Of a stretch of DNA of 64,000 bases, positions 11,581-45,268 are shown piece after piece. The notes under the pieces were generated by a model. The model saw nothing but the letters and a program-made list of their open reading frames with translations, did no database searches and was not told the DNA's origin. A program made the position numbers and the translations under genes. The number at the start of each line of letters is the position of its first letter. The stretch's first letter is position 1. This DNA is from Aporhodopirellula rubra (lineage in GTDB: Bacteria > Planctomycetota > Planctomycetia > Pirellulales > Pirellulaceae), in assembly GCF_014192335.1 (NCBI RefSeq), contig NZ_JACHXU010000006.1:1-64000 (forward strand), read 5' to 3'.

Positions 11581-13569
11581 ATGAATTTTTCTGGACTCCG
11601 TATCGCTTCGCTCGAGAGCCGCCGGGCTGAAGACATGGCCCGCCTGATTACGAAATTTGGTGGTGAGGCCTGCGTGAGCCCCTCAATGCGCGAGGTCCCT
11701 ATCGAGCCTAATCGGCCCGCAATCGATTTTGCTTATCGTGTCATCACCGGTGAAATCCCGATCATGATTTTCATGACCGGGGTCGGATTTCGCTATTTGC
11801 TCAAGAGCACCGAAAAGCACGTCGACTCCCAACGCTTTATCGACGCACTCAGTGACATCACGACGATCGCCCGCGGCCCCAAACCCGCGTCGGCAATGAA
11901 ACAGGTTGGAATCACGGCGACCCATCGTGTCCCCGAGCCTAACACGTGGCGTGATTTGCTCCGGACGATTGACGAAGGCATCCCGGTCGCCAACCAAGTC
12001 GTCGGCATCCAAGAATATGGTGTCACCAACACGTCATTGATCGCGGGTTTGGAGGCACGCGGCGCGATCCCTGAAACCGTCCGCGTTTATGGATGGGAAT
12101 ACCCTGAGGACACCGGCCCGCTCGAAGAGAACGTGAAAGCGATCGCCAAGGGGGAACGTGACATCCTGCTGCTGACGAGCGCTCACCAAGTCGTCAACAT
12201 GCTTCGGATGGCCGATTCGTTGAACCTGACGGAAGCACTGCGTGACGGACTCGCCCAAACCGCCATCGTCTCGATCGGCCCAACGACCAGTGACATGCTT
12301 CGCGAGAGCGACATCCACGTGGACATGGAACCGTCGCATCCGAAGATGGGACACCTCGTCAGTGAGTCCGCCCGCGAAGCAACCGCACTGGTTGAAAAGC
12401 GGCGGACCGCATACCAAGCCGAATCAACCACTCGAGTTTCAATGACCTCTTCGTCCGATCGTGAACCCCTCACCGCCATTGATGACCATCCGTCGCAGTC
12501 CAGCCTATTCATGATGGCTTGCCGCGGCGAACCGACGCCCCGCACGCCCATTTGGTTGATGCGGCAAGCAGGTCGTTACATGCAGGAGTATCGATCCGTA
12601 CGGTCGCAGCAAACCTTTCTCGAACTGTGTGCGAACCCTGCCTTGTGCAGCGAAGTGATGTGCACGGCGGTGGAACGTCTCGGTGTCGACGCGGCAATCA
12701 TCTTTTCGGACTTGCTGCCGATCCTGGTGCCGATGGGATTCGATCTGGAATTCGTCAAAGGCGATGGCCCCGTCATCCACAACCCGGTTCGAACCGCGTC
12801 GGACGTTGATCGCGTCAAACCGCTCGACAACCCTCAGGATCTCGGATTCGTTTACGAGACCGTTCGTCAAACTCGCAAAGACCTGCCCGAATCGATCCCG
12901 CTGATCGGATTCGCCGGGGCCCCGTTCACACTGGCGAGCTACGCGATCGAGGGCGGTGGCAGCAAGCAGTACGCCGCGACCAAACAACTCATGCGTGCCA
13001 ACGATGGTGGCTGGGCGGCGCTGATGGACCGGCTTACCGATGCGATCATCGTTTACCTCAACGAACAAATCGCGGCCGGAGCCCAATGCGTGCAATTGTT
13101 CGACAGTTGGGCGGGGTGCCTTTCCGCTGCCGACTACACCCGGTTCGTGTTGCCATGGATGCATCGAATCATCGCGGGCGTAGCGCCGGGTGTGCCTCTG
13201 ATTAATTTTGCTACCGGCAACCCTGAATTGTTGCCTCTGCTGCGAGGCGATCGTCGTACCGTCGTCGGCGTCGATTGGCGGATCGACATGACATCCGCAT
13301 GGAAACGGATCGGACACGACATCTCGGTTCAAGGAAACTTGGACCCGACGGTGCTGTTGACCGATCCTAAAACGATCCGTGCCGCCGCCAAAGAATTGCT
13401 CGACCAAGTCGGTGATCGTCCCGGCCATATCTTCAACCTTGGTCATGGCGTAATGCAAATGACGCCTGTTGAAAACGCAATCGAACTCGTTCGCGCCGTT
13501 CAGGAACTATCCGTCCGAGAGGACTTCTCCGGTGCACCGGATGACTCCGACGAACAGGATGATTCATGA
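11581..13569 (+). CDS. hemDE: Fused uroporphyrinogen-III synthase / uroporphyrinogen decarboxylase
   Basis: 662 residues in one uninterrupted frame. Residues 1-~270 form a HemD domain (LRIASLESRRAEDMARLI, MTGVGFRYLL, VGIQEYGVTNTSLIAGL, DILLLTSAHQVVNMLR, IGPTTSDMLRE). A polar linker occupies about 275-305. From about 308 a full HemE follows: PIWLMRQAGRYMQEYR (RQAGR at 328-332), the catalytic Asp in IFSDLLPI (D377), GFAGAPFTLASYAIEGGGSK, DSWAGCLS and FNLGHGVM. It would perform two consecutive steps of tetrapyrrole synthesis, hydroxymethylbilane to uroporphyrinogen III to coproporphyrinogen III. The Met at 288 (MTSSSDRE) could in principle give a separate HemE. The next gene overlaps by ATGA. 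Confidence 0.9.
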   Translation: MNFSGLRIASLESRRAEDMARLITKFGGEACVSPSMREVPIEPNRPAIDFAYRVITGEIPIMIFMTGVGFRYLLKSTEKHVDSQRFIDALSDITTIARGPKPASAMKQVGITATHRVPEPNTWRDLLRTIDEGIPVANQVVGIQEYGVTNTSLIAGLEARGAIPETVRVYGWEYPEDTGPLEENVKAIAKGERDILLLTSAHQVVNMLRMADSLNLTEALRDGLAQTAIVSIGPTTSDMLRESDIHVDMEPSHPKMGHLVSESAREATALVEKRRTAYQAESTTRVSMTSSSDREPLTAIDDHPSQSSLFMMACRGEPTPRTPIWLMRQAGRYMQEYRSVRSQQTFLELCANPALCSEVMCTAVERLGVDAAIIFSDLLPILVPMGFDLEFVKGDGPVIHNPVRTASDVDRVKPLDNPQDLGFVYETVRQTRKDLPESIPLIGFAGAPFTLASYAIEGGGSKQYAATKQLMRANDGGWAALMDRLTDAIIVYLNEQIAAGAQCVQLFDSWAGCLSAADYTRFVLPWMHRIIAGVAPGVPLINFATGNPELLPLLRGDRRTVVGVDWRIDMTSAWKRIGHDISVQGNLDPTVLLTDPKTIRAAAKELLDQVGDRPGHIFNLGHGVMQMTPVENAIELVRAVQELSVREDFSGAPDDSDEQDDS

Positions 13570-33109: not shown

Positions 33110-33489
33110 GCTGATTTCATCACGAAGCTGAACCGCGGACCGCCCCCCACCCATTGGCGAAATCCAAACCGTTAGGGATCCGGTTTTACCCCTGATGTCT
33201 CCATCAACACGACGAACGCCGGTCCGCTCGTCAAATCCCGCATCCCGTCATAACGCAATCACAACGGCCCAACTCGCCCGCCTCGCTCGAATTAACCAAG
33301 CGATCCGACTAACATGTGTCAGCCAGCGTCGCTAGACGGTGGACACGCTCTAGCAAACACAGCGACCGATCAAGAGCCTTCGTCATTTACAAAACACCGT
33401 AAACAAAAAACGACGAAGTTGCCCCTTGAGAACTCTCGCTTTCCTCCCGACCGAGGATCTTTCCCTAGATCCATTCCTTTCTAGTCCAC
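33110..33489. other. Intergenic region at the left edge of the polysaccharide locus
   Basis: No credible gene. It separates the last backbone gene from the first sugar-nucleotide gene and presumably carries the locus promoter. No repeat of the kind found further right was seen here. Confidence 0.4.
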
Positions 33490-34530
33490 TTGATCTCCGT
33501 GCCCGAATCAGCCCCAACCACGTCGCAGCCCAAAACCGCTCTGATCACCGGGATCACCGGTCAAGACGGTTCTTACTTGACGGAGTTGTTGCTCGCCAAA
33601 GGCTACACCGTGCACGGTCTCGTCCGGCGTACCAGCAGCACAGTTCGGTCGCGATTGGACTCACTCTTTCATGACAAGAGTGTCTACGAACGTTCGCTGT
33701 TCCTGCACTACGCCGATCTCGATGACGCCACCACCATCCGTCGGATTTTACTCAAAACAAGCCCCGACGAGATCTATCACCTAGCCGGTCAGAGCCACGT
33801 CGGCCTAAGTTTTGAAATCCCCGAATCCACGTGCCAATTCACAGCCATGGGAACGCTCCGGTTGCTCGAGATGATTCGAGATCTCGAAAAGCAACCGCGT
33901 CTGCTTCACATCAGCAGTAGCGAAATTTTTGGCCGCCCGGACGCCTCGCCGCAAAACGAAGCGACCCCGATGCGGCCTGTTACGCCATACGGCGTCGCTA
34001 AGACCTTCGCGACCCAAATGGTTCAGGTGTATCGTCGTTCGTTCGATTGTTTTGCCTGCAACGCCATCTGTTACAACCACGAATCACCGCGTCGTGGTGA
34101 GTCCTTCGTCACCCGCAAAATCACTCGCGCAGCCGCGGCCATCTCACTAGGCCTCCAATCCGAACTCCGCCTCGGTGCTCTGGATGCACGCCGTGACTGG
34201 GGCGACGCTCAAAGTTACGTGGCCGCGATGTGGATGATGCTGCAACAAGACTCTCCTGACGACTATGTGCTCGCAACCGGACGCACTCACAGCATCCAGG
34301 ACTTCCTCGAGTTCTCCTTCGAACACGTCGGACTCGACTGGCGTGACTACGTCGTCACCGATGCCAAATTCATCCGCCCGACCGACGTCGCCGACCTTTG
34401 CGGCGACCCGTCTCACGCCATCGAAAAACTCGGATGGAAACCACCGGAAAGCTGCCAAGAACTCGCACAGCAGATGGTCGACCACGACTTGAAGTTACTC
34501 CAAGAAAAAACAGCTCCCATAAGCTCCTAG
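33490..34530 (+). CDS. GDP-mannose 4,6-dehydratase-like protein (first copy)
   Basis: 346 residues; start TTG 33490 or GTG 33499. SDR Rossmann motif [19 protein letters not shown], catalytic YGVAK, SSSEIFG, and the Gmd signature [17 protein letters not shown]. It is divergent at the nucleotide-sugar site: RRTSSTVRSRLDSLFHDKSV replaces the canonical [15 protein letters not shown] found in the second copy, and AGQSHVGLSFEIPEST replaces [13 protein letters not shown]. It may therefore act on a different nucleotide sugar or be a 6-deoxyhexose reductase-type paralogue. Confidence 0.85.
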   Translation: MISVPESAPTTSQPKTALITGITGQDGSYLTELLLAKGYTVHGLVRRTSSTVRSRLDSLFHDKSVYERSLFLHYADLDDATTIRRILLKTSPDEIYHLAGQSHVGLSFEIPESTCQFTAMGTLRLLEMIRDLEKQPRLLHISSSEIFGRPDASPQNEATPMRPVTPYGVAKTFATQMVQVYRRSFDCFACNAICYNHESPRRGESFVTRKITRAAAAISLGLQSELRLGALDARRDWGDAQSYVAAMWMMLQQDSPDDYVLATGRTHSIQDFLEFSFEHVGLDWRDYVVTDAKFIRPTDVADLCGDPSHAIEKLGWKPPESCQELAQQMVDHDLKLLQEKTAPISS

Positions 34531-34589
34531 CCCATCCCACTTAGCTGATCACCCAACCATAAAACACACGAAACAAACCCTACCCCACA

Positions 34590-35165
34590 ACTTTCGTGTC
34601 ATTCGTACTTTTCGTGGTCAAAAACACACGTCACCACCGGCAACCAACTAAGCCCCCCAACCACAAACCACACCACCCGCAGATACGAGAGCACCAATCT
34701 CCATCCAATCAATCGCACGATCCGCACCAGCAATTGAGACAACGGCTTTACAAACAACCCGCCCCCTAACACTTTCGTGGCATTCGTAATTTTCGTGGTC
34801 GAAAAACACACGTCACCACTGGCAACCAACCAAGCCCCCCAACCACAAACCACACCACCCGCAGATACGAGAGCACCAATCTCCATCCAATCAATCGCAC
34901 GATCCGCACCAGCAATTGAGACAACAGCTCTACAAACAACCCGCCCCCTAACACTTTCGTGGCATTCGTAATTTTCGTGGTCGAAAAACACACGTCACCA
35001 CTGGCAACCAACCAAGATTCCCAACCACAAACCACACCACCCGCAGATACGAGAGCACCAATCTCCATCCAATCAATCGCACGATCCGCACCAGCAATTG
35101 AGACAACGGCTCTACAAACAACCCGCCCCCTAACACTTTCGTGTCATTCGTAACTTTCGTGGTAA
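34590..35165 (+). repeat. Array A: 182-bp tandem repeat between gmd1 and fcl
   Basis: Three nearly identical head-to-tail units plus a partial fourth. The marker CGTCACCAC recurs at 34629, 34811 and 34993, that is exactly every 182 bases. Each unit begins with the triple-TTCG element (such as ACTTTCGTG, CATTCGTA, TTTTCGTGGTC) and continues with a conserved AC-rich block containing CGCACGATCCGCACC. It lacks the hairpin found in arrays B-D. Differences between units are few, implying recent expansion or homogenisation. Long reading frames exist across the array on both strands only because units lack stops. Confidence 0.9.
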
Positions 35166-35257
35166 AGGTCGCCCCATAACAACGTGGCCGATCGATATTT
35201 CCGAAAACAGCAATCAGCTAGGCCCTTACTAACAACTACCGCTAACAGCCATCTACT

Positions 35258-36202
35258 ATGAACTTTCAAAAGATCTTTGTTGCCGGACATCGCGGAATGG
35301 TGGGCAGCGCTCTCATCCGCAAACTCACGTCGAGCCCCAATCCGCCCGCCCAAATTCTGACTCGCACTCGCGATCAACTCGACCTCTGCAACCAAGCCGC
35401 CGTTGACGATTTTTTCGCGACTGAAAAGCCCGACTGCGTTCTGTTCGCGGCAGCTAAAGTCGGCGGAATCCACGCCAACGCAACCTATCCCGCTGAGTTC
35501 GGTTACCAAAATACAGCGATGGCGATGAACTCCATTCATTCTGCATACCGACACGGAACCGAACGTTTCCTGTTTCTCGGCAGCACATGTATCTACCCAC
35601 GAAACGCCCCCCAACCGATCCCTGAAGACAGCCTGTTGTCGAGCCCTCTGGAGCAAACCAACGAGGCGTACGCGTTGGCAAAAATCATGGGACTGAAACT
35701 CTGCCAGTACTACCGAGAGCAATACGGCGTGATGTTTCACTCCGCCATGCCGACCAACCTTTACGGCCCCGGTGACAACTATCACTCCGAAAATTCACAC
35801 GTCATCCCTGGGCTGATCCGCCGATTCCACGAAGCCAAACTGGGCGAAGCGGATTCGGTCACGGTTTGGGGTTCAGGCAACCCGCGACGCGAGTTCCTCC
35901 ATGTCGACGATCTTGCCACCGCCGTGCTGCACCTGATCACGCTGGCCGATCCACCACACTGGGTCAACGTTGGAACCGGCACCGACTTACGGATCGCCGA
36001 CCTAGCAGCCAAAATCGCGAGCGTCGTCGGATTCCAAGGCGAGATCATCCAAGACACCTCCAAACCCGACGGCACCCCCGTCAAACGAACCAATACGGAA
36101 CTCATCAACTCGACCGGTTGGCACCCATCGATCGACCTCGATGAAGGTCTCAAAACCACCTACGCCGATTTCATTCGCAACAGCGAAACGATCCGCTGCT
36201 AG
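35258..36202 (+). CDS. fcl: GDP-L-fucose synthase
   Basis: 314 residues. Motifs: [19 protein letters not shown] (nucleotide binding), [38 protein letters not shown] (catalytic Tyr-x3-Lys), [18 protein letters not shown] and [18 protein letters not shown]. It converts GDP-4-keto-6-deoxymannose to GDP-L-fucose by epimerisation and reduction, using the product of a Gmd. The array-A repeats lie upstream and array-B repeats downstream. Confidence 0.93.
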
Positions 36203-36464
36203 CACGCGATCCAGGGTAGAATCGAGAGGGCAACGGCATCCGTTGTCCCTCTCGCCAAACACATTCAACCAATCATCAATCGCATTCTCTCTCCCACACG
36301 GGAGCCCCTGCAGGTATCAAGCGAACGCAATCAAAACGTTCGCCCAAAACCTCTCTCCCAAGCCTGCGCAAACACAATCCGCGCCGCTCAGCCCCTCTAC
36401 CTTCGCTCCCCCCGAGTCGAACAAAGCAACCAGAGGGCCCACGATCACGCACACCTCACACGCC
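36203..36464. other. Spacer between fcl and array B
   Basis: About 260 bases with no gene. It becomes increasingly C-rich towards the array and contains the AACG...CACATTC stretch. No other signal recognised. Confidence 0.35.
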
Positions 36465-37262
36465 CCCCACAACCTTTCGTGTCGTTCGCGCATTTCGTGG
36501 TCAAACAAATCCAACCCAAAAGTCGACCGATCGCTCCGACGATCGGATTCCACCCCAACGCCAAGCATCCCCCCCTCACCCCAATCAAACAAAACCACCC
36601 ACAACCTTTCGTGTCGTTCGCGCATTTCGTGGTCAAACAAAACCCACCCAAAGTCGACCGATCGCTCCGCCGATCGGATGCCACCCAACACCCAGCATTC
36701 CCCCCTCACCCCAATCAAACAAAACCACCCACAACCTTTCGTGTCGTTCGCGCCTTTCGTGGTCAAACAAATCCCACCCAAAAGTCGACCGATCGCTCCG
36801 CCGAGCGGATCCCACCCCAACACCAAGCATCCCCCCCTCACCCCAATCAAACAAAACCACCCACAACCTTTCGTGTCGTTCGCACATTTCGTGGTCAAAC
36901 AAACCCAACCCAAAGTCGACCGATCGCTCCGCCGATCGGATCCCACCCCAACACCAAGCATCCCCCCCTCACCCCCCAATCACACAAAACCACCCACAAC
37001 CTTTCGTATCGTTCGCGCCTTTCGTGGTCAAACAAATCCCACCCCAACACCAAGCATCCCCCCCTCACCCCCAATCACACAAAACCGCCCACAACTTTCG
37101 CACCGTTTGTGTATTTCGTGGTCAAACAAAACCCACCCAAAGTCGACCGATCGCTCCGCCGATCGGATGCCAACCCAACACCAAGCATCCCCCCCTCACC
37201 CCCCAATCACACAAAACCGCCCACAACTTTCGCACCGTTCGTGTATTTCGTGGTCAAATAAA
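36465..37262 (+). repeat. Array B: ~131-bp tandem repeat with hairpin, between fcl and gmd2
   Basis: Seven units. The TTTCGTGGTC core recurs at 36493, 36625, 36755, 36887, 37020, 37114 and 37246, giving periods of 130-133 bases and one of 94 where the unit lacks its hairpin. Five units contain CCGATCG-CTCCGN-CGATCGG, a 7-bp stem with a 6-base loop (first at 36527-36546); the third has a one-base mismatch (CGAGCGG). Spacer sequence is extremely C-rich and G-poor (CCACCCCAACACCAAGCATC, CCCCCCTCACCCC). Frames open across it are repeat artefacts. Confidence 0.92.
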
Positions 37263-37343
37263 TAAATCCCCACCACAATCACACCAACCACCACCCAATC
37301 GCTTCGCGCACATTCCGTAATCAAAACTACTCCCCACGCCCCC

Positions 37344-38363
37344 ATGCCCACACAATCCAAAACCGCCTTGGTCACGGGAATCACCGGCCAAGACGGATCG
37401 TATCTCGCCGAATTACTGCTCGAAAAGGGCTACACCGTCCACGGAATCGTCCGCCGATCGAGCTCTTTCAACACGTCACGAATCGACCACCTCTACCGTG
37501 ACCCGCACGAAGCCGACACGCGTTTGTTTCTCCACTACGGCGATCTGACCGACGGCCAGAATCTCACCAATCTGGTGCTCGATGTGCAGCCCGATGAGAT
37601 CTACAACCTCGGAGCTCAATCGCACGTCCGCGTTTCTTTCGACGCCCCCGCCTACACCGTTCAAACGGTCGCCCTCGGAGCACTCAACGTGCTCGAAGCA
37701 GCGAGACAACTCTCCAAAACCAAACCGACGCGGGTTTACCAAGCCAGCAGTAGCGAGATGTACGGTGATGTTGTTGAAACACCGCAACGAGAGACCACCC
37801 CGTTCAGCCCACAGAGCCCGTACGCGTGCGCGAAAGTTTACGCGTTTCACCAAACCGTGAATTACCGCAACGCCTACAGTCTCTTCGCCAGCAACGGGAT
37901 TCTCTTCAATCACGAGTCCCCACGACGAGGCGAGACTTTCGTCACGCGAAAAATCACCCGTGCCGCCACTCGGATCAAACTCGGCCTGCAGAAGAAGCTC
38001 TACCTCGGCAACCTCGACGCGAAACGCGACTGGGGCTACGCCAAAGACTACGTCGAAGGCATGTGGCGGATACTGCAACACGACGAACCCGACGACTTCG
38101 TGCTCGCCACCGGCGAAACCCAAACCATCCGAACCTTCCTCGACTATGCGTTCGGCGTCCTCGATCTCGACTGGAACGACTACGTCGAAATCGACCCCCG
38201 ATACTTCCGCCCCTCCGAAGTCGATCTTCTACTCGGCGACAACACCAAAGCCAAGGAGAAACTAGGCTGGGAGCCCAAAACCACCTGCAAAGAACTCGCC
38301 GAACTCATGATCCAACACGACCTAACCCTAGCCCACCAAGAACTCAAACGAACTAGCAATTAG
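37344..38363 (+). CDS. gmd: GDP-mannose 4,6-dehydratase (canonical copy)
   Basis: 339 residues. Canonical motifs: [84 protein letters not shown] and [19 protein letters not shown]. It makes GDP-4-keto-6-deoxy-D-mannose, the substrate of the fcl product. The stop codon lies within AACTAGCAATTAGC, part of a CTAGCAA-type motif also seen at the ends of two downstream glycosyltransferase genes. Arrays B and C flank the gene. Confidence 0.95.
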
Positions 38364-38384
38364 CTTCTAGCGAACAGGTAAAGC

Positions 38385-39680
38385 CGCCACAACGTTCGCG
38401 TCATTCGCACCTTTCGTGGTCAAAAACTTGCCCATAGTCGACCAATCGCTCCGCCGATTGGATCCCCCACAACTCAACCCACCATTCTCCCACCAGCAAA
38501 ACCGAGCGAAGGGTTACCACCGCGCCGAAAGTCCGCACATGAGTCACCCAGGCCCACCCAAAACCTTTCGTATCATTCGCCACTTTCGTGGTCAAGAACA
38601 CGCCCATAGTCGACCAATCGCTCCGTCGATTGGATCCCCACATCTCCACCCAGCACCTGCACTCACAAAACGCTTCATTTCTTCCCGGGAGAGCCAAGCC
38701 AAACGAGCCAAGGGGCATCACAAGCACTAACCACAAACACACCAACTCTACAAATCCCCCCCCCAAAGACTTTCGCGTCGTTCGCACCTTTCGTGGTCAA
38801 AACACCACCAATCACTCGCCACTTCACTCCCATCACTTCGTCGGATAACCGGCATATCCAGCCCCAATCCGGCCAACGCAATCGCATACCGCGAGCTGAT
38901 TAACCTTCCCCGCACCACCATTCGGGCGCGAGATTGCATGCTTTCGTGCAAGCCAAAAGCAAATTCAAATTTGCGTATTATACTGGCCCCAAAGAAAGCG
39001 TTTTCGCCTACTTCAATCCATCTCTTCCGCGTCGTTCGTGGTTAAAAAAACCATCGCCGACCGATCGGATCCCATCCGTCCACAATCAACACGACACGCA
39101 AGCACTCCACCTCAATCGCCGCACTCCACGAATCAAGCCACACGAGGTACCACCCAACAACGTTCGCGTCTTTCGCACCTTTCGTGGTCAAAAACTTGCC
39201 CATAGTCGACCAATCGCTCCGTCGATTGGATCCCCCACAACTCAATCCACCATTCTCCCACCCGCAAAGCCGAGCGAAGAGTTACCACCGCCAAAAGAGT
39301 CACCCAGGCCCACCCACAAACGTTCGCGTCTTTCGCAATATTCGTGGTAAAAAACACCACCATAGTCGACCAATCGCTCCGTCGATTGGATCCCCACAAC
39401 TCAACCCACCATTCTCCCACCCACAAAGCCGAGCGAAGGGTTACCACCGCCCAAAGAGTCACCCAAGCCCACCACAACTTTTGTGTCTTTCGCAATTTTC
39501 GTGGTCAAAAACACGCCCATAGTCGACCAATCGCTCCGCCGATTGGATCCCCACAACTCAACCCACTATTCTCCCACCAGCAAAACCGAGCGAAGGGTTA
39601 CCACCGCGCCGACAGTCCGCACAAGAGTCACCCAGGCCCACCCAAAACCTTTCGTATCATTCGTTACTTTCGTGGTCAAA
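38385..39680 (+). repeat. Array C: ~160-170-bp repeats with hairpin, between gmd2 and rfbB
   Basis: Less regular than arrays A and B. The box CATAGTCGACC begins at 38433, 38604, 39201, 39361 and 39518. Each is followed by hairpin CCAATCG-CTCCG(C/T)-CGATTGG. Each is preceded about 20 bases earlier by the triple TTCG element ending TTCGTGGT and followed by CCACCATTCTCCCACC-type spacer and a GAGCGAAG block. Between about 38,640 and 39,180 degenerate copies of the TTCG element occur without the hairpin (for example near 38,770 and 39,030), alongside unrelated sequence. Confidence 0.88.
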
Positions 39681-39731
39681 AAACACTGCAACCTGCAACC
39701 CACCAACCCACCAACCCGTCCCTGTCACCTC

Positions 39732-40838
39732 ATGAAAACCCTCATCACCGGCGGTGCCGGCTTCATCGGCAGCAACCTCGTTCGACTGGCGTTATCGCAA
39801 GGCCACCAAGTCCTCAACGTCGACGCCCTCACCTACGCGGGCAACCTTGCCTCCCTCAGTGACATCGAAGACAACCCGAACTACCGCTTCGCGAAAATCG
39901 ACATCACCGATGCGGACTCCGTGCAGCAAACCATCGCGGACTTCCGCCCCGACGCCGTCATGCACCTTGCCGCCGAGAGCCATGTCGACCGCAGCATCGA
40001 CGGGCCCGGCCAATTCATCCAAACCAACGTCATCGGCACATTCAACTTGCTGCAGGCGAGTCTCCAACACTACCGATCGTTACCGGACGACCAAGCGGAA
40101 AAATTCCGGTTCCTGCACGTCTCTACTGACGAAGTCTACGGCAGCCTCGGCCAGACCGGACTGTTCACCGAAACCACGCCCTACGACCCGCACTCGCCGT
40201 ATTCGGCCAGCAAAGCGTCCTCTGATCACCTCGCCCGCGCATGGCAGGACACCTACGGCCTCCCCGTCCTCGTCACCAACTGCAGCAACAACTACGGGCC
40301 CTATCAATTCCCCGAAAAACTGATTCCCGTCGTCATCCTCAAATGTCTCCGCGGTGAACCAATCCCCGTCTACGGCAAAGGCGAAAACATCCGCGACTGG
40401 CTTTACGTTGAAGACCACTGCCGCGCCCTGTTGACGGTCGTTGAGAAAGGCAAGCCGGGCCAGACCTACAATATCGGCGGCAACAACGAACGCACCAACC
40501 TCGAACTCGTCCAGACCCTCTGCAGCATTCTCGACGAACTCTGCCTAAGGGCAGAGAGTGGCGAGTCACGAGCAACGAGCAGCGAGATGAAATCAGATAC
40601 AAACTCGCAGCTCGCGACTCGCTACTCGCAACTAATTACCTTCGTCACCGACCGCCCCGGCCACGACCTCCGCTACGCGATCGACGCCAGCAAAATCGAA
40701 CGTGAACTCGGCTGGAAGCCCCTCGAAAACTTCGAAAGCGGCTTCCGGAAAACAGTCCAGTGGTATCTCAACAACGAATCCTGGTGGCAAAACATCCTCT
40801 CCGGCGACTACCAACTCGATCGGCTAGGAAAAAAGTAG
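39732..40838 (+). CDS. rfbB: dTDP-glucose 4,6-dehydratase with in-frame repeat insertion
   Basis: About 368 residues from ATG 39732 ([20 protein letters not shown]). Contains [71 protein letters not shown] and [20 protein letters not shown]. Makes dTDP-4-keto-6-deoxyglucose, the entry to rhamnose and many deoxy sugars. Unusual: residues about 271-302 are Ser/Ala/Glu-rich and encoded by a palindromic repeat (18-bp arms 40556-40573 and 40610-40627). They replace a surface loop before [11 protein letters not shown]. Catalytic motifs are intact, so the enzyme is probably active. No rfbA, C or D neighbours are visible. The stop codon lies in AGTAGCGAGCAGCGAG, the same repeat family. Confidence 0.92.
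40556..40627 (+). repeat. Palindromic repeat inside rfbB coding sequence
   Basis: Left arm 40556-40573 pairs with right arm 40610-40627 over 18 positions with two mismatches (GAGTGGCGAG... against ...CTCGCTACTC), loop 36 bases. The arms are built of AGCGAG/GCGAGT micro-repeats, also found just after the gene (40836-40851). The element keeps the reading frame. Confidence 0.8.
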
Positions 40839-40884
40839 CGAGCAGCGAGAACACAGCCATCGCCCACATCAACCACGCAAAACG

Positions 40885-42270
40885 CCCCCCTCCAAATTCG
40901 ACCAATCGCTCCGCCGATTGGATTCCCCACAACTCAGCCCACCATTCTCCCACCGGCAAAACTGAGCGAAGCGAAGGGCTACCACTGCGCCGAAAGTCCC
41001 TACAAGAATCCCCCCCAGCCCACCCACCACTTTCGCGTCGTTCGCAATTTTCGTGGTCAATAACCACACCCATAGTCGACCAATCGCTCCGCCGATTGGA
41101 TCCCCCACAACTCAACCCACCATTCTCCCACCGGCAAAGCCAAAACGAAGCAAAGGGCCACCACCGCGCCGAAAGTCCGCACAAAAATCCCCCAGCCCAC
41201 TCACCACTTTCGAGTCTTTCGCAACTTTCGTGGTCAATAACCACACCCATAGTCGACCAATCGCTCCGCCGATTGGATCCCCACAACTCAACCCACCATT
41301 CTCCCACCAGCAAAGCCAAGCAAAGGGCTACCACCGCGCCGAAAGTCCACACAAGAATCCCCCAGCCCACTCACCACTTTCGCGTCTTTCGCAACTTTCG
41401 TGGTCAAAAACCACGCCCATAGTCGACCAATCGCTCCGCCGATTGGATCCCCCCACAACTCAACCCACCATTCTCCCACCAGCAAAGCCAAGCAAAGGGC
41501 TACCACCGCGCCGAAAGTCCACACAACAATCCCTCAGCCCACTCACCACTTTCGAGTCTTTCGCAACTTTCGTGGTCAATAACCACACCCATAGTCGACC
41601 AATCGCTCCGCCGATTGGATCCCCCCACAATTCACCCCACCATTCTGCCACCGGCAAAGCCAAAACGAAGCAAAGGGCCACCACCGCGCCGAAAGTCCGC
41701 ACAAAAATCCCCCAGCCCACTCACCACTTTCGAGTCTTTCGCAACTTTCGTGGTCAATAACCACACCCATAGTCGACCAATCGCTCCGCCGATTGGATCC
41801 CCAACAACTCAGCCCACCATTCTCCCACCGGCAAAGCCAAGCGAAGGGCCACAACTGCGCCGAAAATCCGCACAAAAATCCCCCAGCCCACTCACCACTT
41901 TCGAGTCTTTCGCAACTTTCGTGGTCAATAACCACACCCATAGTCGACCAATCGCTCCGCCGATTGGATCCCCACAACTCAACCCACCATTCTCCCACCA
42001 GCAAAGCCAAGCAAAGGGCTACCACCGCGCCGAAAGTCCACACAACAATCCCTCAGCCTACCCACAACTTTCGCGTCTTTCGCAACTTTCGTGGTCAAAA
42101 ACCACGCTCATAGTCGACCAATCGCTCCGCCGATTGGATCCCCCCACAACTCACCCCACCATTCTGCCACCGGCAAAGCCAAAACGAAGCAAAGGGCCAC
42201 CACCGCGCCGAAAGTCCCCAAAAGAATCACCCACGCAGCCCCACCCAGAGCCTTTCGAGTCATCCGCGTC
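40885..42270 (+). repeat. Array D: 170-178-bp tandem repeat with hairpin, between rfbB and first glycosyltransferase
   Basis: Eight hairpin units. CATAGTCGACC boxes start at 41071, 41248, 41418, 41590, 41768, 41939 and 42109 (periods 170-178), preceded by a degenerate first unit near 40897. All carry CCAATCG-CTCCGC-CGATTGG. Unit order: triple TTCG element, about 20 bases, hairpin, CCCACCATTCTCCCACC(A/G)GCAAAGCC, an AAG(C/G)(A/G)AAGGGC block, GCGCCGAAAGTCC and a C-rich tail. Two spacer subtypes alternate (AAAACGAAGCAAAGG and AAGCAAAGG). Open frames running through many units on both strands encode only Pro/Ser- or Gly/Trp-rich repeats and are not genes. Confidence 0.92.
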
Positions 42271-42679
42271 TTTAGCGCTCAAAAATTCACCACCATCACC
42301 ACCCAATTACTTCCCCCCTCAACCCAACACGCAGCTCCCTTCAACCGCGCCAGAACCACGAGACACTCCAGTCCAACCTCCTGTGCCAACCACGACTGTG
42401 GCAGCAAAAAAACCAATCCTCCCCACTCGCCCTCCGATTGCGCAGATTGCGCAAACTATCCGGTAGACATCGAGCAAAACGTGAAATTCCCCCCCTTCCG
42501 TCATTGCAAATTCACGACCCGCGAACGATGCTTTGAGCGTCCAGGCGGAATCCTTTGCCTTGTCCGCAACGGCAAGCCATTTCGCCCATACCCTACCCCG
42601 ACGTAGGTGTCACGAGAGCGAAATTGTTCGCCCCAGAGTGTCACCCAAGGGGACGAAGTCTGCGCTAATCGTCGGTTTT
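42271..42679. other. Leader of the glycosyltransferase block
   Basis: About 400 bases with no convincing gene. Begins with a decayed TTCG element (TTTCGAGTCATCCGCGTC, TTTAGCGCTC near 42,260-42,280). A reading frame from 42533 runs into the glycosyltransferase gene but does not look coding before about 42,680. Confidence 0.35.
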
Positions 42680-44083
42680 TTGCTGTCCAAACTCGTCTTC
42701 CTGAATCGTTGCTACTGGCCGGACACCGAGGCAACTGGACAATTGCTCACCGACCTCTGTGAACACCTCGGTCGCTGCGGCCACGAAGTTCACGTCGTAT
42801 GCGGACAACCCAACAGCCCACGAGCGAACACCCCCTTTTTGCCGCATGGCGTCGAAGTCCGAAACGGGGTTTCGATCCACCGACTCACCCACGCCCGATT
42901 TCCCAAAAGGGTCCCCGCCGGTCGACTCCTCAACCTCGTTTCGTTCACCCACGCGGCGCAGCGGTACCTCAAACAAACCCGACTCCAAGCCGACGTCTTT
43001 GTCAGCGAAACAGACCCATTTTTACTGCCGGCTGTCGTCGCCAAACATGCTCGGCGGTTCAACGCTCACTTCGTCGCCTACCTCCAAGACATCTACCCTG
43101 ACGTCGCCGAAGCGATCGGCAAAGCAAAACCGGGGCTAGTCACCAACCAAATCCGCAGCCGGCTGCGAAACGCCTATCAATCCGCCGCAAAAGTGATCGT
43201 CCTCGGCTCGTGCATGAGAGACCGGCTAGCCAGCCCACCGTGGTCACTCGACGCTGACAAGATCGAGATCATCCCCAACTGGGCCGACTGCGGGGCCATC
43301 CGGCCGATCCCACACACCGACAACCCGCTTCGCCAGCAATGGAACCTGAACGACAAATTTGTCGTCATGCACTCGGGCAACATGGGCCTGACCCAGCGAC
43401 TCGATTTCCTCATTGACGCCACGAACGATCCCGCTTGGCCCGAAAACGCGGTCCTCCTCCTCGTCGGCGACGGAGCCGCCAAACAGCAACTCCAACACCA
43501 ATCCGCCCACCCCCCGCCAAACCCACCGACGGACAAAGTGAGCCGTTTTGGCGCTAGCCACGGTTGTGATCCTTCATCCAATCATCACCCTCCCTCTGGG
43601 AGGGTCGAGCGAAGTGAGGGGAGGGCCGAACCGCAAAACCAACAACCCGAAAAGCTAAAAGCTAATAGCGATCAGCTAATAGCGAAAAACAAAACAACGC
43701 CCCGCGTTCAGTTCCTCCCCTACCAACCCCGCGAACAACTCGCCGAATCACTCTCGGCTGCGGACCTGCATGTTATCTCCATGCACGAGAACATCACCGG
43801 CTGCTTATGCCCCAGCAAGCTGTACGGCATCCTCGCCGCCGGCCGCCCTGTCCTCGCCATCGCCCCCGACCAAACCGACCTCGCCCGCACAGTCCATGAA
43901 CAGAAAATCGGTTGGGTGTGCGAGCCCGGCAATGCGAAACGAATCGCAGAGTCCGTCGCGAAAGCCGCCACGTCGCAAATCGCCCCCATTGGCCAGACAG
44001 CCCGCCGCCTAGCAGAAACCAATTACGACCAATCCGTCGCCGTGGCGGCCTTCGAAAAGCAAATCACTAACCTGAACAACTAG
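42680..44083 (+). CDS. Family 4 glycosyltransferase (WbuB/WcaI-like) with in-frame repeat mosaic
   Basis: About 468 residues from TTG 42680 (LLSKLVFLNRCYWPDTEATG). The frame continues upstream but loses family resemblance. GT-B fold: N-terminal LTDLCEHLGRCGHEVHVVC, middle FVVMHSGNMGLTQRLDFLID, C-terminal ADLHVISMHENITGCLCPSK then LYGILAAGRPVLAIAP. Transfers a sugar from a nucleotide donor to the growing lipid-linked glycan. Between VGDGAAKQQLQ and RVQFLPYQPREQL lies an inserted low-complexity stretch of roughly 60 residues (bases about 43,500-43,700) built from at least three DNA repeats. Family members normally lack it. The stop codon is within AACAACTAGCAACC. Confidence 0.88.
   Translation: MLSKLVFLNRCYWPDTEATGQLLTDLCEHLGRCGHEVHVVCGQPNSPRANTPFLPHGVEVRNGVSIHRLTHARFPKRVPAGRLLNLVSFTHAAQRYLKQTRLQADVFVSETDPFLLPAVVAKHARRFNAHFVAYLQDIYPDVAEAIGKAKPGLVTNQIRSRLRNAYQSAAKVIVLGSCMRDRLASPPWSLDADKIEIIPNWADCGAIRPIPHTDNPLRQQWNLNDKFVVMHSGNMGLTQRLDFLIDATNDPAWPENAVLLLVGDGAAKQQLQHQSAHPPPNPPTDKVSRFGASHGCDPSSNHHPPSGRVERSEGRAEPQNQQPEKLKANSDQLIAKNKTTPRVQFLPYQPREQLAESLSAADLHVISMHENITGCLCPSKLYGILAAGRPVLAIAPDQTDLARTVHEQKIGWVCEPGNAKRIAESVAKAATSQIAPIGQTARRLAETNYDQSVAVAAFEKQITNLNN
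43541..43690 (+). repeat. Composite of small repeats inside glycosyltransferase coding sequence
   Basis: Three elements in series: a 22-base box (43541-43562, core TTTTGGCGCTAGCC) identical to one at 45275-45296; a perfect hairpin CCCTCCC-TCT-GGGAGGG at 43588-43604 followed by GAGCGAAGTGAGGGGAGGG; and a run of AAGCTAAAAGCTAATAGCG / CAGCTAATAGCG motifs at about 43653-43690. All are read through in frame. Confidence 0.85.
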
Positions 44084-44098
44084 CAACCAACAACTCCC

Positions 44099-45223
44099 TT
44101 GCGTCTCCTCGTCAACACTCTCTCGATCGGCTCCATGAGCGGCAATCACGTCGTTTATGGATTCTTGCGGCCCTACGCGGCGGCGATTCTCCCCAACGAC
44201 GAGCTTCTCATTGTGCACTACGAGGACAATCCGCCTCCGCAAGAGATACTTGACCAGGGCGCGACAACGATCCCCGTCTCCGCCCGCTACCAAAAATGGT
44301 CCAAACGGTTGCTTTGGGAATCGACCCGATTGCCATCCGTTATCCTCAGCGAGAGAGCTGACGTGGTGCTGACCGTCTCGGGAGCATTGACGCCGCGCTG
44401 TCCCGTTCCTCAAGCCGTCCTTTGCCAGAACCCGTGGTGCTACCGTCCCGTTGTCCATCGTGATTGGAAAGAGCGAATCAAGGCACGTCTTCAGAGAGTC
44501 GGATATCGCAAAGCCTTCGAGAAGGCCGACTTGATGATCTATATTTCGGGGCACCTCCGCGACCTCTATCGCCAAGACAATCTTGGACGCGGCGAAGCCC
44601 CCAGTGAGATTGCCTATGTGGGGCTGAACGACGACACCTATGCTGCCGCCCAGCAACATGCCGACCTGCCGCGCGACCCTTACTCAATCCTGTCCGTCTC
44701 CGCGATGGCGTCATGGAAAGGAGCCCACACGCTTGTCGAAGCGGTCTCAATTCTTCGCAAGCGAGACATCCCTGCCATTTTGCGACTCGTGGGCCCATGG
44801 CCGCACCCTGAATACGAACAACGCATCCGGAGGCAGATACAGTCACTCGGGCTGGATGAGGCCGTGGAGATCCTTGGCCGAGTCAGCGACGAAGAACTTC
44901 ATCGGCAATACGCGATCAACCAAGTCTACGCGTTACCAAGTCACTGCGAGTCCTACGGAATCCCAGCCGCCGAAGCGATGGCTTTCGGGACCCCCGTCGT
45001 CAGCACCACCTGCTGTGCGATCGCCGAGATCTGTGCCGAGGCCGGTGAATTCGGCCCGGTTGAAAATCCCAACTGGACCGCTGATGCACTGCAAAAGCTG
45101 CTATGTGACCAGAATCGATGGAACGAGCTCAGTGCAGCGGCCAAACAAAAGGCCGCCACTCTCAACTGGCAAACCTGTTACCAACCCCTGCTCAAGCTCA
45201 GCCAACTAGCAACTAGCAACTAG
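44099..45223 (+). CDS. Family 4 glycosyltransferase
   Basis: 374 residues from TTG 44099, 15 bases after the preceding stop. Central PYSILSVSAMASWKGAHTLV and ILRLVGPWPHPEYEQRI; the donor-site E-x7-E motif is in YALPSHCESYGIPAAEAMAF then GTPVVST. The last residues SQLATSN and the TAG stop are encoded by the first three copies of a CAACTAG heptamer array. Probable function: elongation of the polysaccharide repeat unit. Confidence 0.88.
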   Translation: MRLLVNTLSIGSMSGNHVVYGFLRPYAAAILPNDELLIVHYEDNPPPQEILDQGATTIPVSARYQKWSKRLLWESTRLPSVILSERADVVLTVSGALTPRCPVPQAVLCQNPWCYRPVVHRDWKERIKARLQRVGYRKAFEKADLMIYISGHLRDLYRQDNLGRGEAPSEIAYVGLNDDTYAAAQQHADLPRDPYSILSVSAMASWKGAHTLVEAVSILRKRDIPAILRLVGPWPHPEYEQRIRRQIQSLGLDEAVEILGRVSDEELHRQYAINQVYALPSHCESYGIPAAEAMAFGTPVVSTTCCAIAEICAEAGEFGPVENPNWTADALQKLLCDQNRWNELSAAAKQKAATLNWQTCYQPLLKLSQLATSN

Positions 45224-45268
45224 CAACTAGCAACTAGCAACTAGCAACTAGCAACTAGCAACTAGCAA
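45203..45268 (+). repeat. CAACTAG heptanucleotide tandem repeat at gene end
   Basis: About 9.4 perfect copies of CAACTAG across the 3' end of the glycosyltransferase gene and into the spacer. Because 7 is not a multiple of 3 and each unit contains TAG, translation stops within three units in any frame. The array is followed directly by the 22-base box at 45275-45296. Confidence 0.95.

Follow-up and report, generated by a model that had tools for sequence, protein, structure and literature searches.

What are tandem repeats doing in four successive gaps of a bacterial sugar operon? The question is raised by a 64,000-nucleotide stretch of the planctomycete Aporhodopirellula rubra (NZ_JACHXU010000006.1, positions 1 to 64,000; hereafter the window), in which four arrays stand between nucleotide-sugar genes. 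Our preferred answer, to which we give a probability of about 0.72, is that they arose by tandem growth specific to this lineage and derive, in degenerate form and without the gene, from an inverted-repeat cassette carrying a GxxExxY gene, a system that would resemble in its logic the repetitive extragenic palindromes (REPs) and their REP-associated tyrosine transposases (RAYTs). Three observations carry this answer: the same repeat arm recurs in intergenic clusters across the genome, it accompanies GxxExxY genes, and the arrays are absent from the nearest relative.

Arrays in the sugar operon

The operon lies on the + strand and runs, by Pfam, from gmd1 through an fcl-like epimerase, gmd2, and an rfbB-like gene to glycosyltransferases and an ABC exporter. 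All four gaps from gmd1 to the first glycosyltransferase, here lettered A to D, are filled, as the initial annotation described, and hold 25 copies of a shared arm (4 in A, 7 in B, 7 in C, and 7 in D). The features are as follows.

33499..34530, + strand: gmd1, GDP-mannose 4,6-dehydratase family (PF16363)
34590..35163, + strand: array A, 4 arms, unit of 182 bp, no hairpin box
35258..36202, + strand: fcl-like NAD epimerase (PF01370)
36466..37263, + strand: array B, 7 arms, spacing 130-133 bp (one 94), G-C type box
36527..42137, + strand: span of the 18 hairpin boxes (arrays B, C, and D)
37344..38363, + strand: gmd2 (PF16363)
38391..39681, + strand: array C, 7 arms unevenly spaced, tandem from 39150, A-T type box
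39732..40838, + strand: rfbB-like dehydratase (Pfam)
40898..42233, + strand: array D, 7 arms, spacing 170-178 bp, A-T type box
42638..44083, + strand: glycosyltransferase (Pfam match taken from 42683)

The arm common to the four arrays is a triple TTCG, TTCG-N5-TTCG-N5-TTCGTGG, also written TTCG-N5-TTCG-N5-TTCGTGGTC. A pattern scan allowing two mismatches recovered it in every array, all 25 copies having 0 or 1 mismatch and all lying on the + strand, as the genes do, and it was matched nowhere in 20 mononucleotide shuffles of the window. Tandem Repeats Finder reported array A at 34590-35163 (period 182, 96% matches), array B as two overlapping rows at 36466-37263, array D at 40898-42233 (period 170), and the second half only of array C (39150-39607, period 157). 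The unit lengths first assigned to A (181-182), B (130-133, one 94), and D (170-178) agree with these data, but array C is looser than had been claimed, with uneven copy spacing before 39150 and tandem order only from there. Open reading frames (ORFs) run across the arrays, but because the copy spacings (181-182, 130-133, uneven, and 170-178) drift off multiples of three, the arrays were not taken as genes. At Rfam gathering scores, the window and four other loci (five sources, 142 kb) yielded a single tRNA, in locus L001, and no rRNA in the window.

Arrays B, C, and D also share a hairpin box, CC[G/A]ATCGCTCCGNCGAT[C/T]GG, as first noted; it is present in 18 copies (at most 2 mismatches) and is missing from A. 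Seventeen of these begin 20-24 nt after an arm, and no arm precedes the box at 40902. The array B form is CCGATCG-CTCCGN-CGATCGG (one copy with an altered base), and the C and D form is CCAATCG-CTCCGN-CGATTGG, the two differing by one G-C to A-T change under which the stem is preserved; two G-T forms occur elsewhere. Exact boxes in this genome fall, 17 of 17, at the window locus or at 92-93 kb of contig C6, between ParA-like and exosortase genes. Units are 90-96% alike within an array and differ between arrays. When compared, the units of B, C, and D group with those at C6:91 kb and on contig C130 of the nearest relative, G149; C and D are most alike, and A stands apart.

The history of the locus can be read against other members of the genus, using 11 gmd2 loci from 10 of 12 other genomes. 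The suggestion of an element dedicated to nucleotide-sugar genes is not borne out here: 10 of the 11 loci have no motif, and most of these have a different gene order. Among 80 gmd loci of named genomes (1.35 Mb), there were 2 motif matches, and most top-ranked gmd2 relatives come from metagenome-assembled genomes (MAGs) of planctomycetes. In G149, the nearest genome as judged by gmd2, that gene is 91% identical and gene order is the same to rfbB, but the gaps differ strongly: one arm stands in gap A, boxes stand in A, in C, and after rfbB, 7-bp repeats occur, and there is no array. Gaps A and C measure ~161 and ~123 bp there versus 727 and 1368 in the window, which bears out the suggestion of an expandable element. 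Because G149 has arm and boxes without arrays, the site probably had these components before any array arose, and the arrays would then have grown in the lineage of the window; loss of arrays in G149 is the alternative.

Two other repeats were seen in the operon. An in-frame inverted repeat with 7-bp steps lies inside rfbB at ~40556-40640, where G149 has a longer insert, and a perfect CAACTAG repeat (x9.4, 45203-45268) lies between a glycosyltransferase and an ABC exporter gene.

The arm across the genome and its GxxExxY partner

The longer arm pattern has 75 exact matches in the 8.5-Mb genome versus 0 for a reversed control, the shorter pattern with one mismatch has 166 versus 1, and a 25-mer pattern has 126 exact matches versus 0. 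Such patterns detect arms of the TTCG type only. At least 10 clusters result, on C1, C6, C12 (a single match), C13, C21, and C36, with placements of the shorter pattern taken from 100 of its 166 matches. Nine cluster stretches and one linking stretch were examined with genes called by a home-made codon-score script. By these calls the clusters are intergenic, except that the C12 match and a weak match in L002 lie in called ORFs. Neighbors include DUF1559 proteins with a sigma factor, an NtrC-type regulator, TsaD with a dioxygenase, a T2SSE ATPase, asparaginase with patatin, a protein kinase, and G6PD, cupin, and oxidoreductase genes; at C6 91-98 kb, they are exosortase, ParA-like, SPFH, and FHA genes. 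Since most clusters adjoin unrelated genes, the arrays are not tied to nucleotide-sugar genes, contrary to the dedicated role first suggested. The statement that no array occurs before 33.4 kb or after 42.3 kb holds within the window but not beyond it, with further arrays at 91.6-98.5 kb of the same contig and on other contigs.

Orientation with the genes is likewise a property of the window and not of the arm in general: the C6:91 kb array is on the - strand between + genes, and most others are mixed. Counting arms as +/- with at most 2 mismatches gave 9/9 at L001, 20/20 at L002, 4/3 at L003, 9/8 at L004, 2/10 at L006, 0/1 at L007, 0/9 at L008, 5/2 at L009, 3/5 at L010, and 25/0 in the window. 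Outside the window, clusters are often hairpin pairs of one + and one - arm, and orientation alternates at C1 (L002).

The full element is found at C1, where three ACGAA units spaced in 9-bp steps make up an arm, which is followed by a loop of ~18-20 nt and the reverse-complement arm. Two 74-nt paired-arm stretches from C1 fold well below shuffles (z of −3.7 and −5.7); among window stretches of 131-150 nt (z of −0.1, −1.2, −1.6, and, for D, −2.8), only D stands out. Of the two arms, window units retain the right one alone, to which B to D add the box as a second palindrome. Because a worn left arm, a right arm, and a box stand together at C6:91 kb and at G149:C130, these sites resemble intermediate forms that would link the hairpin at C1 to the units of the window. 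The G149:C130 units also adjoin FHA, SPFH, and ParA-like genes.

Three arrangements were seen in passing. At L001:8820-10063, a TTCG array abuts a 7-bp array (GCTAATC x11.7). In the units of the L008 arrays (C13:245-250 kb), the TTCG arm is accompanied by another arm of 9-bp steps, CACCGAGGACACCGAGGGCACAGAGG. A prophage-like region that includes portal, head, and terminase genes (L243 and L244, G045:C1:150-184 kb) has several gaps in which TTCG arms and hairpin pairs are found.

Inside the array at C1:475-478 kb is a 125-codon GxxExxY gene (TIGR04256, 134 bits, E of 3e-39; PF13366 PDDEXK_3, 133 bits, E of 6e-39), and homologues 62-70% identical in genomes G154, G045, and G044 lie within or edging such arrays. 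In a survey of 149 genomes of the family, the exact motif was present in 70 and GxxExxY in 107. All but one of the 47 genomes in which the motif occurred twice or more were GxxExxY positive (46/47), and 893 copies fell in the 107 positive genomes versus 11 in the 42 negative ones; because the genomes are related, genome-level p values overstate this link. The most motif copies among the 149 were in G014, a 6-Mb genome with 130 exact copies and 18 GxxExxY matches.

Individual loci allow a closer view. Taking the best-scoring GxxExxY locus per genome, regardless of motif, the motif lay within 69 bp of the matched domain at 10 of 30 loci. Thirty four-helix-bundle loci from the same genomes had no motif within 250 bp (a single match lay ~1.3 kb off), and a tie between the TTCG motif and these genes was tested and dropped (0/30 loci nearby). 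At 30 Y1-transposase loci, the motif was found at 0. Typing within the genus covered 30 of the 42 GxxExxY places as loci: those at least 60% identical to the C1 protein of this genome had the motif at 3/3, those at least 66% identical to a second type had it at 4/5, one of these genes being broken, and the remaining 22 had it at 0/22. Three more short GxxExxY fragments (two in G130, one in G150) have the motif 17-136 bp away. At L308 (G149:C95), a broken GxxExxY copy adjoins the motif, the sort of decay that a mobile element would be expected to show. Distance between proteins was correlated with distance between arms (r of 0.48, permutation p of 0.0005) over the 44 loci with a clear inverted repeat, drawn from 57 with long enough flanks, of 60; the value was 0.49 for the family set (22 loci) and 0.40 for the phylum set (22 loci).

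To our knowledge, neither GxxExxY nor four-helix-bundle (S23/IVP) genes have a settled role. In 61 GxxExxY sequences, the residues of a D..ExK..QxxxY pattern are kept (D 61, E 60, K 61, Q 59, Y 61), which we take to be marks of RecB/Cas4-like PD-(D/E)XK nucleases. The protein is a predicted PD-(D/E)XK-like nuclease on the strength of these residues and the Pfam match; a PDB sequence search with it returned no match.

These data suggest the following history. In its full form, the cassette would be a three-ACGAA arm with 9-bp steps, a loop of ~18-20 nt or a GxxExxY gene, and the reverse-complement arm. Arms shed by such cassettes may settle in inter-gene gaps, and the GxxExxY protein may have driven their original spread through cutting or copying at hairpin sites, much as has been proposed for RAYTs acting on REPs. 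Single arm-plus-box units would have settled in the sugar-operon gaps, multiplied in tandem via slippage or unequal recombination, and passed between neighboring gaps, as the likeness of C and D units hints. The arrays would then be passengers tolerated in the gaps.

Several results weigh against this account. The window arrays have no left arm and carry a box absent from the C1 cassette, so we infer their descent from the arm and the apparent intermediates. No GxxExxY gene or fragment was found in the window (tblastn, E of 1e-3, two queries), and no insertion with target duplication came to light, no base-exact empty site having been sought. G149 and G115 have 33 and 30 motif matches (at most 1 mismatch, some by chance), and at their loci examined, in draft assemblies, no intact GxxExxY gene adjoins a motif; G022 has 6 copies and is GxxExxY negative. 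The motif is lacking at 20 of the 30 best GxxExxY loci. As a control, four-helix-bundle genes were present in 42 of the same 47 multicopy genomes (p of 0.011), with 707 copies in 115 positive and 197 in 34 negative genomes; because this presence also weakly follows the motif, part of the genome-level GxxExxY link may reflect shared descent or mobile-rich genomes. The protein-arm correlation would follow from simple co-inheritance too and is by itself no proof of recognition. A single-sequence AlphaFold model of the L060 GxxExxY protein had a mean predicted local distance difference test score (pLDDT) of 38.9 and no usable fold.

Repeat period and rival explanations

GxxExxY and four-helix-bundle genes are both flanked in many cases by repeats inverted about the gene, so inverted-repeat scores alone fail to separate the two classes; the period of the repeats does. 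Period was scored as self-similarity runs in 250-bp flanks (threshold 9) for the 60 best-scoring GxxExxY loci (family and phylum), 30 four-helix-bundle loci (family only), and the 26 of 30 Y1 loci with long enough flanks. GxxExxY flanks had period 8 or 9 at 39/60 loci and period 7 at 0/60, and four-helix-bundle flanks had period 7 at 24/30, period 8 at 3, and period 9 at 0. None of periods 7, 8, and 9 was found at the 26 Y1 loci, and shuffles gave 0 to 3. With a laxer threshold of 8, period 7 appeared at two GxxExxY loci and period 9 at one four-helix-bundle locus. Distant flanks (1.25-1.5 kb off) had period 7 at 4/26 four-helix-bundle loci and period 9 at 2/50 GxxExxY loci. Among the 30 genus GxxExxY loci, weaker matches included, 13 had period 8 or 9 and none had period 7. 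Plasmid records gave 8 distant GxxExxY matches, of which three were examined and none serves as evidence for the rule.

An example from farther away is L060, a deltaproteobacterial MAG contig (JAFDAI010000013.1) with a GxxExxY gene amid inverted arrays of 8-bp TTCG steps (12150-13050); 11 TTCG-N4-TTCG steps fall in the 1.3 kb around the gene versus 12 in the other 19.7 kb. The gene stands just before an ORF resembling an NAD epimerase, on a contig that had been taken for its gmd gene.

A wider reading of the period data is tentative, and we hold it at somewhat less than even odds: GxxExxY genes with 8- or 9-bp arms would form a REP/RAYT-like selfish system with a PD-(D/E)XK-type nuclease at its core, S23/four-helix-bundle genes with 7-bp arms would form a parallel one, the period would serve as each family's address label, and the window arrays would be gene-less progeny.

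The alternative that survives best differs from the cassette account in the mover only. Arms of the kind found in miniature inverted-repeat transposable elements (MITEs) or REPs could be moved by another enzyme, such as a Y1/RAYT transposase, with GxxExxY as cargo. Y1_Tnp is common (117/149 family genomes, 7 matches in this genome), and four-helix-bundle genes, whose family name does not denote a nuclease, sit between 7-bp-period arms too. However, Y1 loci have neither the motif (30 loci) nor any of the three periods (26 testable loci), and arm subtype tracks GxxExxY subtype, so that we regard another mover as unlikely.

Quite improbable, in our judgment, is a dedicated regulatory element whose transcript hairpins set polarity or mRNA stability, with selection keeping an array in each gap. 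Its best evidence is in the window: arms all on the gene strand, a B-D hairpin with a compensatory change between B and C/D, and a D stretch that folds better than shuffles. Boxes also occur in three G149 gaps, and the confinement of the box subtype to two sites of this genome would fit dedication. Against these stand the 10 of 11 genus gmd loci without the motif, the arrays of the same genome that adjoin unrelated genes on either strand, and the arms and pairs within prophage-like gaps of G045. The control of polarity first suggested gains no support either, as terminator- and promoter-like sites are not in excess: 33400-43000 holds 0 promoter-like and 9 terminator-like sites versus 3.3 and 16.1 in shuffles. 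Of the 9 terminator-like sites, 8 are on the - strand, and the sole + site (33455) is upstream of gmd1.

Least likely are ordinary minisatellites grown by slippage without a gene tie, GxxExxY cassettes merely carrying look-alike arms, a reading that suits the alikeness of units within and not between arrays and the irregular copies of gap C but is already weakened by an arm that recurs in 9-bp register in at least 10 clusters (control, 0), stands beside GxxExxY in other genera too, and follows GxxExxY presence in copy number.

Known systems and wider meaning

MITEs are gene-less copies sharing terminal inverted repeats with a gene-bearing relative. The paired arms seen elsewhere, with and without GxxExxY, recall this in part; window units have one arm, and tandem growth prevails in the window. 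REPs and bacterial interspersed mosaic elements (BIMEs), as presented in PMC2817692, are many extragenic palindromes, often in arrays of alternating orientation, with a RAYT gene flanked by two inverted copies and a copy number that correlates with gene presence. The present repeats are alike in their many extragenic palindromic copies, in a gene between inverted arms, and in copy number following the gene. They are unlike in that the gene is GxxExxY (predicted PD-(D/E)XK-like) and not Y1, the arms have 9-bp steps, and the window holds single-arm direct repeats. We do not file the arrays under REP/RAYT because the defining association with a Y1 transposase fails (0/30 Y1 loci).

The nearest published match to the four-helix-bundle side is the 23S rRNA intervening sequence of Coxiella (PMC4990558), a 428-nt element whose terminal inverted repeats enclose an S23 ORF in their loop and which has heptamer repeats next to that ORF; four-helix-bundle genes in our survey also have heptamer repeats. 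The window arrays, unlike that element, are intergenic in a sugar operon and ORF free, with 9-bp arms, a TIGR04256 partner, and no rRNA match. The TAACTGA heptamers of Beggiatoaceae are short-period and mostly intergenic repeats whose mobility was considered by the author (PMC4679880). They differ in being direct 7-bp-step repeats before start codons, with no inverted-flanked gene in the part of PMC4679880 at hand, and are nearer the four-helix-bundle side of the period rule than the TTCG arms are. Within one open-access literature collection, we found no publication on this repeat family or its GxxExxY link.

The window arrays point to a bacterial repeat element of a little-known kind, and they caution against presuming a regulatory role for repeat arrays at capsule or exopolysaccharide loci. 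GxxExxY matches touch several phyla, and both gene families occur in many lineages whose genomes are littered with short-period repeats. A rule linking period to family makes these repeats and proteins testable, as it predicts which protein reads which repeat.

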